A DNA stretch of 64,000 nt from Halobacteriales archaeon YIM A00010. GTDB lineage: Archaea; Halobacteriota; Halobacteria; Halobacteriales; Haloarculaceae. Made by a program: the position numbers and the translations under genes. The notes beneath the pieces are model-generated. The model did no database searches. It had not been told where the DNA came from and was given only the letters and a program-made list of their open reading frames with translations. Shown here piece after piece: positions 7,816 through 25,250 of this stretch. The DNA lies in NCBI GenBank assembly GCA_025041175.1, contig JAKCFJ010000004.1, positions 62,001 to 126,000 of the forward strand. Direction: 5' to 3'. Position 1 is the stretch's first letter. The number at the start of each line of letters is the position of its first letter.

Positions 7816-8560
7816 GGCACTGTCTAGTTGAGGTGGCTTGAGGAATGAGCAGGTCGTAGCGAGAACTGATCATGGAACTCGGAGACCTGCTCAGAGAGAC
7901 GTTGAATGTGGATTGTGATGAGGTTTGGGACAACGAGCGCACCCCGACACCCGTCAGGGTGTACGGGGTGCGTCTCCATTCGATGGGGCTGTCGCTGCGC
8001 GAGGTCGTCGCGGTATTCGATTGGCTTGGCATCGACCGTTCCCACGGCGCGGTCTGGGACTGGACGCACACGCTCTCGGAAGCCCAAGAAGACCCGCCGA
8101 CGGCGGAGCCGTCGCGGGTCGCTGTCGACGAGAAACAGATTACCGTCGATGGCGAGAAAAAGTGGCTCTACGCTGCCGACGACACTGACTCGAAGCTGCT
8201 GCTCGATATCGAGGTGTTCAGCCGACGCGGGACCGATCCCGCGTCGGCGTTCCTCCATCGACTCACCACCAATCATGACGTCTCAGATACCGAGTTTCTC
8301 GTCGACGCCGGTGGGTATCTGACCGCTCTCGCTCGGCGTGAGTTGAGCGGTCACCTCGACTACAGCGAGCGCAACCTCGTCGAGAAACTGTTCCAGACTG
8401 TGGCGATGCGAATCAACCGTTTTCACTCGTTCTGGCGGGGGAGTCCAGCCAGCGCGCGGCGCTGGCTGCGACGGTTCAAGCATCACTATAACCATGATCG
8501 GCCGAATCAGGCGCTCGATGGACGAACGCCCGTCGAGGAGGTTCTCAACTAGACAGTGCC
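7816..8560 (+). mobile_element. Complete IS6-family element with 8-bp target duplication
   Basis: A 745-bp element. The terminal inverted repeats read GGCACTGTCTAGTTGAG at the left and its exact complement at the right. The flanking 8 bases ATGTTAGG occur at 7808-7815 and again at 8561-8568, the 8-bp target duplication normal for IS6 (family knowledge). It carries one intact transposase gene. This looks like a recent insertion. A sister copy of identical length lies at 42107-42851 and decayed relatives at 18795-19434 and 38140-38430. Confidence 0.95.
7872..8552 (+). CDS. IS6-family transposase
   Basis: DDE transposase of 226 residues that cuts and joins the ends of its own element. The catalytic residues can be placed in VAVDEK (first Asp), FLVDAGGY (second Asp) and RNLVEKLFQ (Glu). 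An N-terminal helix-turn-helix is formed by VRLHSMGLSLREVVAVF. The C-terminal YNHDRPNQALDGRTPVEEVLN is the usual IS6 ending and its stop lies within the right inverted repeat. A near-palindrome with loop GGA at 8098-8114 sits in the coding region. Confidence 0.93.
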   Translation: MELGDLLRETLNVDCDEVWDNERTPTPVRVYGVRLHSMGLSLREVVAVFDWLGIDRSHGAVWDWTHTLSEAQEDPPTAEPSRVAVDEKQITVDGEKKWLYAADDTDSKLLLDIEVFSRRGTDPASAFLHRLTTNHDVSDTEFLVDAGGYLTALARRELSGHLDYSERNLVEKLFQTVAMRINRFHSFWRGSPASARRWLRRFKHHYNHDRPNQALDGRTPVEEVLN

Positions 8561-19513: not shown

Positions 19514-20884
19514 TTAGAAGGTTTCGAGGTAGTGGTCGAGTTCCCACTCGGAGACCGCCGCACGGTATTTATCGAATTCGGCACGTTTTGCCTCGATGAA
19601 CTTCGCTGCGATGTGCTCACCGAGTGCGTCGAGGATGACCTCATCGGTTTCGAGAACATCGATCGCTCCACCGAGATTGGCTGGCAGTGTGTCGATACCA
19701 TACTCCTCGCGTGTTGATTCATCGAACTCGTAGATGTTCTCCCGGACAGGATCAGGGGCAGTGAGTCTGCGCTCGATTCCGTCGAGTCCAGCCTGGAGCA
19801 TGACCGCAAGCGCGAGATACGGGTTGCACGACGGATCCGGTGAGCGCAGTTCGATTCGCGAGGCAGCTGGGGTGCGCGCGGCGGGTTTGCGGACGAGCGC
19901 GGACCGGTTCACGTCGCTCCACGCGACGTAAACGGGAGCCTCATAGCCGGGCACGAGCCGTTTGTAGGAATTCACCGTGGGGTTACAGACCGCCGTGATG
20001 GCCGGTGCGTGCTCCAGAATCCCGGCAAGGAACTGGTCTGCTGTTTCGGAAAGATCGAATTCGTCGTCCGCATCGTGGAAGGCGTTCTCCCCATCCTCGG
20101 TGAACAGCGAGAGATGCGTGTGCATCCCGCTGCCGTTGATGCCCGCGATGGGCTTTGGCATGAACGTCGAGTGGAGATCGTGTTTGGCAGCGATCGCGCG
20201 CACCACCGCCCGGAATGTGGCGATATTATCCGCCGTAGTGAGTCCGTCATCGTATTTGAAGTCAATCTCGTGTTGGCCTTCTGCAACCTCATGGTGGCTT
20301 GCCTCAACCTCGAAGCCCATCTGCTCGAGCCCGTAAATGATGTCTCTGCGCACGTCGCTTGCGAGGTCCTTCGGCGCGAGATCGAAATATCCGCCCGCGT
20401 CATGAGTGATCGTCGTCGCCTGCCCGTTTTCCTCTTCAAAGAGGAAAAACTCTGGTTCCGGCCCGGCGTTGAGCGTATACCCCATATCCCCGGCACGCTT
20501 CAGCGCGCGCTTGAGTACGTGACGGGGGTCACCAGCGAAGTTGTTCCCGGACGTATCCATCACGTCGGCGATCAACCGGGCGCTCGCAGTGCCGTCCTCA
20601 CGGGTCTTCCACGGCAATATCGCGAACGTGTTTGGGTCGGGCTTGAGCCGCATATCGCTCTCCTGGATCCGGACGAATCCTTCGATGGATGAGCCGTCGA
20701 AATAGATCCCTTCAGTAAACGCTTTCTCGGCTTGACTCGCTGGGATGGAGACGTTCTTCACTGTCCCGAGGATGTCCGTGAACTGGATACGGAGGAAATC
20801 CACGTTGTTCTCTTCGATTGCATCGAGAACACTCTGTGCTTCGGCATCGAGACCACCATCAGTGGTAATACCTTCGCATTCCAT
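19514..20884 (-). CDS. glnA: Glutamine synthetase, type I
   Basis: Joins ammonium to glutamate with ATP, the main entry of ammonium into organic nitrogen; cytoplasmic dodecamer. 456 residues, the usual GSI length. The beta-grasp N-domain ([17 protein letters not shown]) is followed by catalytic [29 protein letters not shown], and [20 protein letters not shown] with [14 protein letters not shown]. The adenylylation tyrosine loop of the beta subtype is not obvious. It is divergent from an Lrp gene (127-bp gap), and an 8-2-8 palindrome at 20912-20929 lies about 30-45 bases before the ATG, so Lrp control is likely. Confidence 0.96.
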
Positions 20885-21011: not shown

Positions 21012-21422
21012 ATGACGTATGAAAACTTGGACGAGAAATTGGTGAACGCACTTCTTGACGACAGTCAAGCGAGTCTCCGACCTCTCGCGGAGGAGTTCGA
21101 CGTTTCGGTCACGACCACCTCGAATCATTTGAGCGATCTCAACGACCAAGGCGTGATCGAGGGCTATACGCTGACAGTCGAGTACGACACGCTCGGCTAC
21201 GACGTGACAGCGATCATCCAACTCAAAGTCAAAGGCAGCGCCATCACCACCGTCGCCGATACCCTACGTGACGCGAATCAGATGGTCTCCGTCTATGAAG
21301 TGATAGGCGACAACGACGTGATCGTTATCGCCAAGCTCGTGGATACTGATGGAATGAATAATCTGATCAAGAATATGTTAAATAATAAAACTATAATAAG
21401 GCGAATACGAGAGCTGTCTTGA
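21012..21422 (+). CDS. Lrp/AsnC-family regulator next to glnA
   Basis: 136 residues: an N-terminal winged helix-turn-helix ([22 protein letters not shown], about 22-43) followed by a RAM ligand-binding domain ([30 protein letters not shown]). Binds amino acids such as glutamine and controls nearby genes as a dimer or octamer (family knowledge). Divergent orientation with glnA and the palindrome between them indicate that glnA is a target. Confidence 0.9.
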
Positions 21423-21697: not shown

Positions 21698-22171
21698 TTA
21701 CGTCTTGCTCTGCTCAGCAACAAGCTCGATTGGGTCGTTCTCTACGACCGTATCAAGCACAACACTGGTATTGCCCGCCTGGATAGTGGAATCTGTTAGG
21801 ATAGATTTGATTTGTTCGTTCATCGAAGTCACGTCAGTATATTTTCCGACCGCAAACACATCAAAATCGCCGGTGACTTCATAGATACTCATGATATGGG
21901 GTTCGCTCCGGAGCCAGGACATGAATTGCTCAATCGCATCATCGTTCAGATCAAGCTGAAAGATTGCAGTCAGCTCATATCCGAACTGTGTATACTCAAT
22001 TTGAGGTTCATACCCTGCAATGATATCGGATTCATGGATGTGTTTCAGTCGCTTCTGGACAGTCGTTGCCGGAGCATCTATCTGCTCTGCGATATCGATG
22101 ATCGTCGCCCGGCCATCGCGTTGTAACGCATCGATAATACGTCTATCAAGCGTGTCAGCGTCGTTTGTCAT
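21698..22171 (-). CDS. Lrp/AsnC-family regulator downstream of amt
   Basis: 157 residues: helix-turn-helix (DIAEQIDAPATTVQKRLKHI, about 25-44) and RAM domain (GYELTAIFQLDLN, YEVTGDFDVFAVGKY). It starts only 26 bases after the amt-PII stop on the same strand and is probably co-transcribed with it. A regulator in the operon of the ammonium transporter and convergent with the glnA-linked Lrp suggests a two-Lrp nitrogen circuit (inference). Confidence 0.88.
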   Translation of the reverse strand: MTNDADTLDRRIIDALQRDGRATIIDIAEQIDAPATTVQKRLKHIHESDIIAGYEPQIEYTQFGYELTAIFQLDLNDDAIEQFMSWLRSEPHIMSIYEVTGDFDVFAVGKYTDVTSMNEQIKSILTDSTIQAGNTSVVLDTVVENDPIELVAEQSKT

Positions 22172-22197: not shown

Positions 22198-23886
22198 TCA
22201 GACCGCGTCACGGCCGGTCTTGCCAGTTCGGATCTGATAGGCCGCCTCAACAGGGAGGATGAATACCTTCCCGTCGCCGGGATCGCCTGTTTGAGCGGCC
22301 TCACAGATCGCCTCGGCAACCGTTTCGGCCGGAATATCAGCAACGATACACTCGATTTTCACTTTTTGGTGGAGATCGACGGTGTACTCTTCTCCTCGCC
22401 ACTGGCCCTTCTTGGCGGGTTGGGACCCGCGTCCGGACACGTTTGTCACAGTCAGCGAGGGGGCACCCGTTTCAGCAAGTGCCCGCTTGATCTCGGCGAG
22501 TTTGTCTGGACGGACATAGGCCATGACGAGTTTGATCTCGCCCTCGTTGGCGAGGCCACCGTCGGTCCGGAGCGGCTCCTCGTCCGACGGAGAGACACTC
22601 CCTCCGTCGGTTGCTGTCGTCTCGTCTGGTCCGAACTCCGGATAGGTCTCGACGCCGTGCTCGCTGATGTCCAGCCCGTCGAACTCATGGTCGCGAGACA
22701 CACGAATCTGTCCGAGGGCTTTCAGCGTCCCAAAGATAGCCGCCGTCGCGAGGACTGTCCACCCGGCGATGACGACGACGCCGATCAGTTGGCCCGTGAA
22801 GCTCACGCCCGCCCCCGGAACGGTGAGCACTGGAACGCCGACCAAGAGCGCACCGATAACGCCCGCACTACCGTGAACCGAAAAGACTGCGCACACGTCA
22901 TCGATCCGCAGTCGTTTTTCGATCGCCTCGAACACGATAGGCAGCTGTGCGCCTGCGATAAGACCGATGAACAGCGCTCCATACCATGTGATGAGATCCG
23001 TATTACTCGTGACGCCGACGAGGCCAGCGAGCATCCCGTTCGCGACGTACAGCGTATCGACCTTCGCCGTCTTTATGAGGGAGATAACGCTGGCCCCGAT
23101 GGCCCCCGCAGCCATCCCAAGCGTTGTCGTCAATGCGACCCGCCCAACGTCTTGAAAGTCCGCGAGCGCCGTAGCACCCTCCGCTAACGGTGCGGCGGCC
23201 GTTCCAACGTTAAAGCCATACCAGCCAAAGCAGAGGATGAGCGTCCCCAACACCGCAAAGGTGATCGAGTGGCCTGGAATAACATTTGCAGTGCCATCGC
23301 TGTTGTATCGATCAAGCCGCGGACCGACGATCCATGCCGCAGTGAGTCCTGCAATGCCGCCCATCCCGTGGACGATCATCCCACCTGCGAAATCGGTGAA
23401 GCCAACGGTCGCGAGCCAGCCGCCAGCCCACGTGAGTCCCGTCACCACCGGATAGATCACCGCCGCCAGCAGGATGGTGTACGAGACGTACGCCCGGAGT
23501 TTCATGCGCCCCGCGACCGCACCGCTGACGATCGTCGCCGCAGTCATTGCGAACACCGCCCCGAACAGCCAGTCAACCCATGCTAACGTCCGCTCGGGAG
23601 CGAGTATGGCGAAGAAGCTGCCAGATTCACTCCCCGAGGTCAGGGCAGCAACGAACGCTTCGACGCCCGAGCCGACGAGGAAGAACACGATGACACCCAC
23701 GCTCCATGTGAGCATATTCTTCGTGAGCTGGTTGGCAACGTTCTTTGAGCGCACCTGGCCCGCTTCCAGCATTGCAAAGCCAGCGTGCATGAAGAAAATG
23801 AGAAACGTCACCACGAGTACCCACACGTAGTTGATCGCCTCCGTCACTGCCGTGGGATCTATCTGTAAGAAGACCGGTCCACTCAT
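22198..23886 (-). CDS. amt: Ammonium transporter fused to a PII (GlnK) regulatory domain
   Basis: One 562-residue frame. Residues 1 to about 410 are an Amt channel with 11 likely membrane spans; the twin pore histidines are H173 (GMIVHGMGG) and H338 (FSVHGSAGV), with D165 in FTDFAGG. An acidic linker (412-450) leads into a full PII domain (451-562): [21 protein letters not shown]-loop RGEEY with Y501 at the uridylylation position, B-loop [14 protein letters not shown]. GlnK normally is a separate protein that plugs Amt from the cytoplasm when nitrogen is plentiful. The start is the ATG at 23886; 44 upstream in-frame codons look non-coding. No stop or start divides the halves, though PII could have an internal start. 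Confidence 0.93.
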
Positions 23887-23990: not shown

Positions 23991-24005
23991 GGTTATATAT
24001 AAACC
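23991..24005. promoter_or_regulatory. GGTT...AACC element and TATA upstream of amt
   Basis: GGTTATATATAAACC, about 105-120 bases before the amt ATG. It contains the most TATA-like sequence in the region and shares the GGTT/AACC arms of the glnA palindrome. If it is the promoter, the transcript has a leader of roughly 75-80 bases, unusual for a leaderless-rich group. Confidence 0.5.
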
Positions 24006-24555: not shown

Positions 24556-25250
24556 GGCGGTGTTCAGATAAGGATGAAGTGTGAGGCGGTTCGTTTTCTG
24601 AGTGCTCTATGCCCAAAAACGACCGCCTCAACGGATGTTTGGACGACATTGACTTGGATTTTATGGAGCGAGAAGCAACACCGCAGTTGTTTATGAAGCT
24701 CGGTATTCAGCCCCACCTTGCTGGTCTATCGCTTTCGAATACCGTTACTACTCTTGAGGTATTCGGTGTTGAACGGGCTCGTTCGACCGTCCACAATTGG
24801 GTTCACAAGGCCGATCTACAGCCAGAGGATGGACGAAGCCCGGATCACATTGCGGTTGACGAGACCGTGATCCGACTGAACGACGAGCAGTATTGGCTGT
24901 ACGCAGCTGTTGATCCCAAAACAAACGAATTGCTTCACACAATGCTTGAGCCGACGACAAACACAGTTCTTGCTCAGTCACTTCTCACCGAACTTGCCGA
25001 GAAACATGATGTTGAGGAGGCTGTGATTCTCGTTGATGGGTCACATTCATTACAACACGCGTGTCGTCGACACGGCTTCGATTTCAGATATGAACGCCAC
25101 GGAAATCGGAACAGCGTCGAACGTATCTTTCGTGAGGTAAAACGACGCACTTCTTCGTTCTCAAACTGTTTCAGCAATGCCAAAGCAGAAACTGCAAACG
25201 AGTGGCTCAGATCGTTCGCCTTTGCATGGAATCAGCTTATCTGAACACTA
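24556..25250 (+). mobile_element. IS6-like element inserted in tnpB
   Basis: About 695 bp. The shared inverted ends are GTGTTCAGATAAG (from 24560) and its complement (to 25248). CCGTGATACC occurs at 24546-24555 and again at 25251-25260; TnpB reading joins correctly if one copy plus the element are removed, so this is the target duplication (8-10 bp, edges ambiguous). It contains one intact transposase gene. Confidence 0.88.
24609..25244 (+). CDS. IS6-like transposase (short form)
   Basis: 211-residue DDE transposase. The N-terminal part contains the helix-turn-helix region LAGLSLSNTVTTLEVFGVER. The catalytic core has HIAVDETVIRL (Asp), AVILVDGSHSL (Asp) and RNSVERIFREVKRRTSSFSN (Glu). It differs clearly from the 226-residue IS6 type at 7872 and 42136 and ends FAFAWNQLI, with the stop inside the right inverted repeat. 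It appears intact and could still be active. Confidence 0.88.
   Translation: MPKNDRLNGCLDDIDLDFMEREATPQLFMKLGIQPHLAGLSLSNTVTTLEVFGVERARSTVHNWVHKADLQPEDGRSPDHIAVDETVIRLNDEQYWLYAAVDPKTNELLHTMLEPTTNTVLAQSLLTELAEKHDVEEAVILVDGSHSLQHACRRHGFDFRYERHGNRNSVERIFREVKRRTSSFSNCFSNAKAETANEWLRSFAFAWNQLI

Follow-up and report, generated by a model that had tools for sequence, protein, structure and literature searches.

The question raised by this locus is whether an ammonium transporter (Amt) and the PII protein GlnK, the channel's own regulator, are made here as one polypeptide, and what such a tied-on regulator would still be able to do. The window analysed, a stretch of 64,000 nucleotides from Halobacteriales archaeon YIM A00010, contains at 22198..23886 on the minus strand a single open frame of 562 aa, which begins with ATG at 23886, ends with the stop codon at 22198-22200 and has no internal stops. 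Pfam Ammonium_transp (PF00909) matches residues 21-415 over profile positions 1-399 of 399 (E 3.6e-99), and P-II (PF00543) matches residues 452-556 over profile positions 2-102 of 102 (E 1.5e-24). The preliminary description, which proposed one polypeptide with an Amt and a complete PII, was thus correct on this point.

The Amt part (22642..23886, minus strand, residues 1-415), delimited by Pfam, the AlphaFold model and a residue alignment, is followed by an acidic linker with TDGG motifs that is predicted to be disordered (22534..22641, minus strand, residues 416-451), and by the PII (GlnK) domain with a canonical free C-terminus (22201..22533, minus strand, residues 452-562), whose T-loop (22378..22431, minus strand, residues 486-503) contains R497 and Y501. 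An acidic linker had been expected and is present, but the gap between the Pfam domains measures 36 residues (416-451), close to the 39 first given. The AlphaFold model, which is of the monomer, consists of 11 long helices, predicted to be transmembrane, the disordered linker and a PII fold whose helices and strands follow the order of the ferredoxin-like type, with pLDDT below 50 over residues 422-444 of the linker and low confidence also for the T-loop at 486-502. Foldseek searches with this model returned Amt structures at a TM-score of 0.8-0.87 (by target length) and, for the PII part, GlnK2 of Haloferax mediterranei. Past the linker Pfam found PII and nothing else; a kinase or other output enzyme at the C-terminus is absent.

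A first explanation to be considered is that a sequencing or assembly error fused two genes. The same genome carries a second Amt-PII fusion on another contig (contig 1, 2001269-2002873), 85% identical to the first, and the linkers of the two copies are only 56% identical over the aligned positions. Across 562 aa the fusion shares 88% identity with that of Halocatena marina, the nearest named relative. Each of the seven genomes sampled from the genus (Halocatena, judged by its named relatives) has PII only in the fused form, in frames of 552-619 aa. No interruption of the frame occurs at the junction in H. marina or the second copy, nor in 129 distinct linkers of fused genes, so the stop codon in the linker that the preliminary description wished to see excluded is absent from the gene itself, from its second copy and from its relatives. 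The differences between copies in the Amt and PII parts lie mostly at third codon positions, with a dN/dS of about 0.03-0.1 where computable; the linker diverges faster than either part and yet stays open and in frame. An error is ruled out by the second copy, by the members of the genus and by independent assemblies across many genera, and it retains practically no probability.

The twin histidines, the Phe gate and the filter Trp of the pore are kept in the Amt part. Aligned with the residues named for Ks-Amt5 in PMC5764959, the histidines H173 and H338, together with F112 and F225 of the gate and W153 of the filter, correspond to H171, H326, F103, F223 and W144. The positions first given for H173, H338 and, in the PII part, Y501 agree with the alignment. 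The serine found in the filter of other Amt proteins (S227 in Ks-Amt5) is Thr229 here, and T229 is invariant across the haloarchaeal fused set. The Amt C-terminal region (22633..22677, minus strand, residues 404-418) is strongly conserved in both fused and separate haloarchaeal Amts, and 151 of the 152 fused ones retain it; according to work cited in PMC3831643, this region is required for GlnK binding by E. coli AmtB. By sequence the Amt part belongs with the Amt/MEP/Rh proteins, and it presumably forms an ammonium-conducting trimer.

The PII part would likewise be expected to sense its ligands. Residues Q489, R497, Y501, K508, K540 and R553 are the counterparts of Q39, R47, Y51, K58, K90 and R103 of E. 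coli GlnK, whose sequence served only for numbering. The suggestion that a tethered PII could retain the residues for ATP/2-oxoglutarate (2OG) sensing is borne out, as Q489, R497, K508, K540 and R553 are all present, and Y501 too. The T-loop is the same in the 126 distinct fused and 82 distinct free haloarchaeal PII domains compared, with R47 in 100/100% of fused/free domains, Y51 in 98/100% and Q39 in 99/100%, while K58, K90 and R103 are found in 100% of both. In this comparison neither the T-loop nor the ligand residues show loss or relaxation in the fused domains. In many PII structures, although not universally, R101 contacts the ATP phosphates; position 101 is Gln in all of the fused domains and in 96% of the free ones. 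Since Gln also stands at this position in free haloarchaeal PII, comparison of these sequences indicates that Gln101 is a trait of the lineage and not a loss in the fusion.

Among solved structures, the nearest to the PII part is that of H. mediterranei GlnK2 (4ozj, E 1.8e-58; also 4ozl and 4ozn), which has the same T-loop and the same Gln101 but, unlike the fused PII, is a separate protein; the entry 4ozn, deposited as complexed with ATP, is 77% identical to the PII part. None of the 126 fused PIIs carries residues past the domain; each stops at the natural C-terminus. The free C-terminal carboxyl is important for 2OG binding, and an N-terminal tag seems less consequential (PMC8395244). Because 2OG binding needs the free C-terminus, N-terminal tethering lies on the tolerated side, and the order Amt-PII should spare sensing. 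No match to PF08335, which would indicate a GlnD uridylyltransferase, was found in the genome, and uridylylation of Haloferax GlnK has been reported according to a citation in PMC3831643.

In the genome (99.7% complete) two matches to Amt and two to PII were found, no more, and these are the two fusions; by this profile-match test it has no soluble PII. The expectation that the tethered PII cannot leave the membrane is supported, as it shares its frame with Amt; the lack of any other PII gene in the genome was beyond the reach of the preliminary description. Since the protein is a single chain with PII at 1:1, bound to the membrane and with its sensing residues kept, the best reading is a built-in gate: an ordinary T-loop plug controlled by 2OG, ATP and ADP, now tethered, so that the protein would be a single-chain Amt-GlnK in which the standard gate has its regulator tied on. 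We place the probability of this reading at roughly three in four. On the observed side it starts from the single frame, the two complete domains, the pore, T-loop and ligand residues, the free C-terminus and the lack of another PII gene. Separate GlnK blocks Amt by inserting its T-loops into the pores with ADP bound, and the loops are out with Mg-ATP and 2-oxoglutarate (PMC3198391; PMC8395244); in H. mediterranei, ammonium shock leads to reversible binding of separate GlnK to AmtB1 (PMC3831643).

By extension from this known Amt-GlnK mechanism and from H. mediterranei GlnK, which would supply trimer assembly, ligand binding and gating, three chains would form an Amt trimer in the membrane, and the three tethered PII domains would assemble beneath it on the cytoplasmic side. 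With ample nitrogen (low 2-oxoglutarate, ADP bound), the T-loops would enter the three pores, R497 being among the inserted residues, and ammonium entry would stop. With scarce nitrogen (Mg-ATP and 2-oxoglutarate bound), the T-loops would withdraw and the channel would open, while PII would still be held by the flexible acidic linkers.

The AmtB-GlnK pairs (E. coli 2NUU/2NS1; AmtB1 with GlnK1/2 in H. mediterranei) are of the same families, gene order and 3:3 stoichiometry, and share the pore, T-loop and ligand residues with the fusion, which differs from them in being one polypeptide, with PII tied to the membrane and no separate PII in the genome. The 1:1 stoichiometry proposed at the outset holds for a single chain but is not new, as separate GlnK and Amt bind 3:3 (PMC8395244). 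The tether thus leaves the stoichiometry of the bound state, 3:3 in E. coli, unchanged, whereas PII loses the ability to act at other sites. Another comparison is offered by Ks-Amt5 of Kuenenia stuttgartiensis, an Amt-histidine kinase that likewise has an Amt with a C-terminal cytoplasmic signalling domain, but there the effector is a kinase and Amt has been turned into a receptor, whereas in the haloarchaeal fusion the partner is the regulator of the channel itself (PMC5764959).

The confinement of PII to the membrane would be lifted if linker cleavage or an internal start supplied soluble PII and the fusion served only to equalise amounts. For this gene an internal start was rejected, as its linker has zero ATG, GTG or TTG codons before the PII core and a pattern scan found no TATA-like stretch within 200 nt before the PII part. 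Among the 129 distinct fused linkers, an in-frame ATG occurs in 13 and a GTG in 35, which would allow such a start elsewhere, but 82 have no start codon. As to cleavage, the linker is exposed and disordered in the model, proteolysis there could free PII in the cell, and H. mediterranei yielded a 20-kDa C-terminal AmtB1-Flag fragment, although there the cut lay inside the membrane part (PMC3831643). Against both routes, D442-G443 of the linker is invariant among 48 diverse fused proteins despite the predicted disorder. We judge a supply of soluble PII by either route to be very unlikely. Haloarchaeal linkers and Amt tails are made of repeated (R)TDGG units whose number varies (residues 427-444 here; also loci L018 and L020).

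The fusion has a TATA-like box of the archaeal type, TTTATATATA, at 23994..24003 on the minus strand, 117 nt upstream of the start codon, identified by pattern only. A gene of the Lrp/AsnC family (21698..22171, minus strand) starts 26 nt past the stop codon of the fusion and probably shares its transcript; a similar Lrp-family gene lies directly downstream of the fusion in the four closest loci (L082-L085). The nitrogen genes around the fusion comprise glutamine synthetase (GS), two Lrp-family regulators, NasA (assimilatory nitrate reductase) and a nitrite/sulfite reductase, and there is also an MFS transporter. The two Lrp-family regulators (21012-21422, plus strand, and 21698-22171, minus strand) are convergent, lie between the fusion and glnA, and are candidates for nitrogen control of the cluster. 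An IS240/IS6-like transposase with a DDE domain (24609-25244, plus strand) is located about 0.7 kb upstream of the fusion start.

The glutamine synthetase gene glnA (19514..20884, minus strand) lies outside the fusion, 1.3 kb beyond its end, and its product is a possible partner of PII. This neighbour brings in the idea that the tethered PII is both gate and scaffold, and that at high 2-oxoglutarate its T-loops, once out of the pore, bring another target to the membrane, for instance glutamine synthetase, thereby coupling ammonium entry to assimilation. Such a role is in line with the long linker predicted to be disordered, with the equal T-loop conservation in fused and free PII, and with the activation of GS in vitro by PII of H. 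mediterranei (PMC3831643) and of Methanosarcina mazei, where the T-loops bind GS directly (PMC10651883). On the other hand, the GS-contact residues Ile48 and Tyr49 of M. mazei GlnK1 appear, by residue matching, as Gln-Trp in the fusion, and GlnK2 of M. mazei, a protein without GS binding, likewise has Gln-Trp (PMC10651883); Haloferax GlnK has the same Gln-Trp in its T-loop, though it is reported to activate GS in vitro. Moreover, none of the 40 related loci listed had a glnA match next to the fusion. We consider a scaffold function of this kind unlikely.

The preliminary description treated the fusion as an exception and left open whether other haloarchaea share it. In a class-wide haloarchaeal sample, PII was found in 373 of 391 genomes, and in a tally of one genome per genus, covering 81 genera with the present genome included, PII was only fused in 48, fused and free in 5 and only free in 28. 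Fused forms thus occur in 53 of the 81 sampled genera (and in 9 of 11 sampled family codes), as well as in Bacillota, and for haloarchaea the view of an exception does not stand. One genome counted among the 28 with free PII only (G123) in fact has a fused gene broken by frameshifts, through either decay or assembly error; the frameshifts affect the Amt part and the stretch immediately ahead of the T-loop (L211/L221), and this is the sole PII match in that genome. Some fused frames are longer, up to 917 aa, and additional domains in them were considered and rejected, as these are stop-to-stop frames whose upstream part looks non-coding. Of the top-scoring PII matches listed for the phylum, those from outside the class all lie in frames too short for a fusion.

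On a tree of 105 Amt domains, built by a quick method and without an outgroup and therefore approximate, the fused or separate label requires 20 changes, of which at least 11 are forced by supported branches, compared to 33.6 for shuffled labels. A single change of state in haloarchaea is rejected by these counts. Two old Amt clades are recognised, one mostly separate and the other mostly fused. Where amt and glnK are separate, most of the gene pairs overlap by 4-10 nt, usually by 4 or 8 nt, and the acidic TDGG-rich stretch known as the linker of fused proteins is found as the tail of separate Amts. Because the genes overlap and the tails are common to both forms, a small indel at the junction can switch the state. 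At two loci, free PII copies beside a fused Amt-PII keep RTDGG...PNDGG before the PII core (L215, where the ORF frames measure 198 and 152 aa, and L139, with the copy at 7879). As this linker motif still precedes the core, the extra free PII in some genomes with both forms is suggested to derive from the 3' end of a duplicated fused gene.

These observations would also fit a neutral fusion, in which a small indel joined two overlapping, translationally coupled genes and regulation stayed as it was, the result being tolerated as the complex is already 3:3. The 4-10 nt overlaps, the shared TDGG tails, the frequent changes on the tree and the identical T-loop in both states favour this explanation, while the fact that the fused-only state is the commonest, and that it is constant within the genus studied, speaks against it. 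We hold it to be possible, if somewhat doubtful; it is compatible with the built-in gate and disputes no more than selection for the tether itself.

The two domains are well known, as is their partnership, and a 2013 paper reported that haloarchaea have an amt-glnK gene pair (PMC3831643). No paper describing an Amt-PII fusion was found in the open literature, and an earlier mention in subscription journals is possible. What seems most worth following is that most haloarchaeal genera apparently have only membrane-tied PII, together with the frequent flips of state. The customary picture of PII is that of a soluble hub in contact with many targets, and by sequence matches soluble PII appears absent from most of the haloarchaeal genera (48 of 81). 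In the fused-only genomes, roles of free PII such as the activation of glutamine synthetase would be carried out at the membrane, lost or taken over by something else. A stronger form, which we consider unlikely, is that in most haloarchaeal genera PII exists only tethered to Amt with no free messenger, so that all signalling, including any to glutamine synthetase, would occur at the membrane, PII alternating between plugging of the pore and recruitment of a second target. The fusion offers a natural test of whether the control of Amt needs PII off the membrane and of which PII functions are dispensable, and since close relatives differ in whether the two proteins are fused or separate, nature provides the comparison ready-made.

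In bacteria, where plasmid sequences were searched by tblastn, one-piece Amt-PII proteins were found in Bacillota, and in the three that were checked, from Ruminococcus albus 7 (WP_013483901), Monoglobus pectinilyticus (WP_320691151) and Enterococcus raffinosus (WP_222227351), both Pfam domains lie within a single CDS. Like the haloarchaeal fusion, they have Amt followed by a C-terminal PII, but their linkers are longer and unrelated, their T-loops lack tyrosine 51 and their C-terminal tails are short. Because the T-loops without tyrosine and the tails differ, the Bacillota proteins probably represent an independent fusion. Their second domain has escaped annotation, as the single-chain proteins examined are labelled simply "ammonium transporter".
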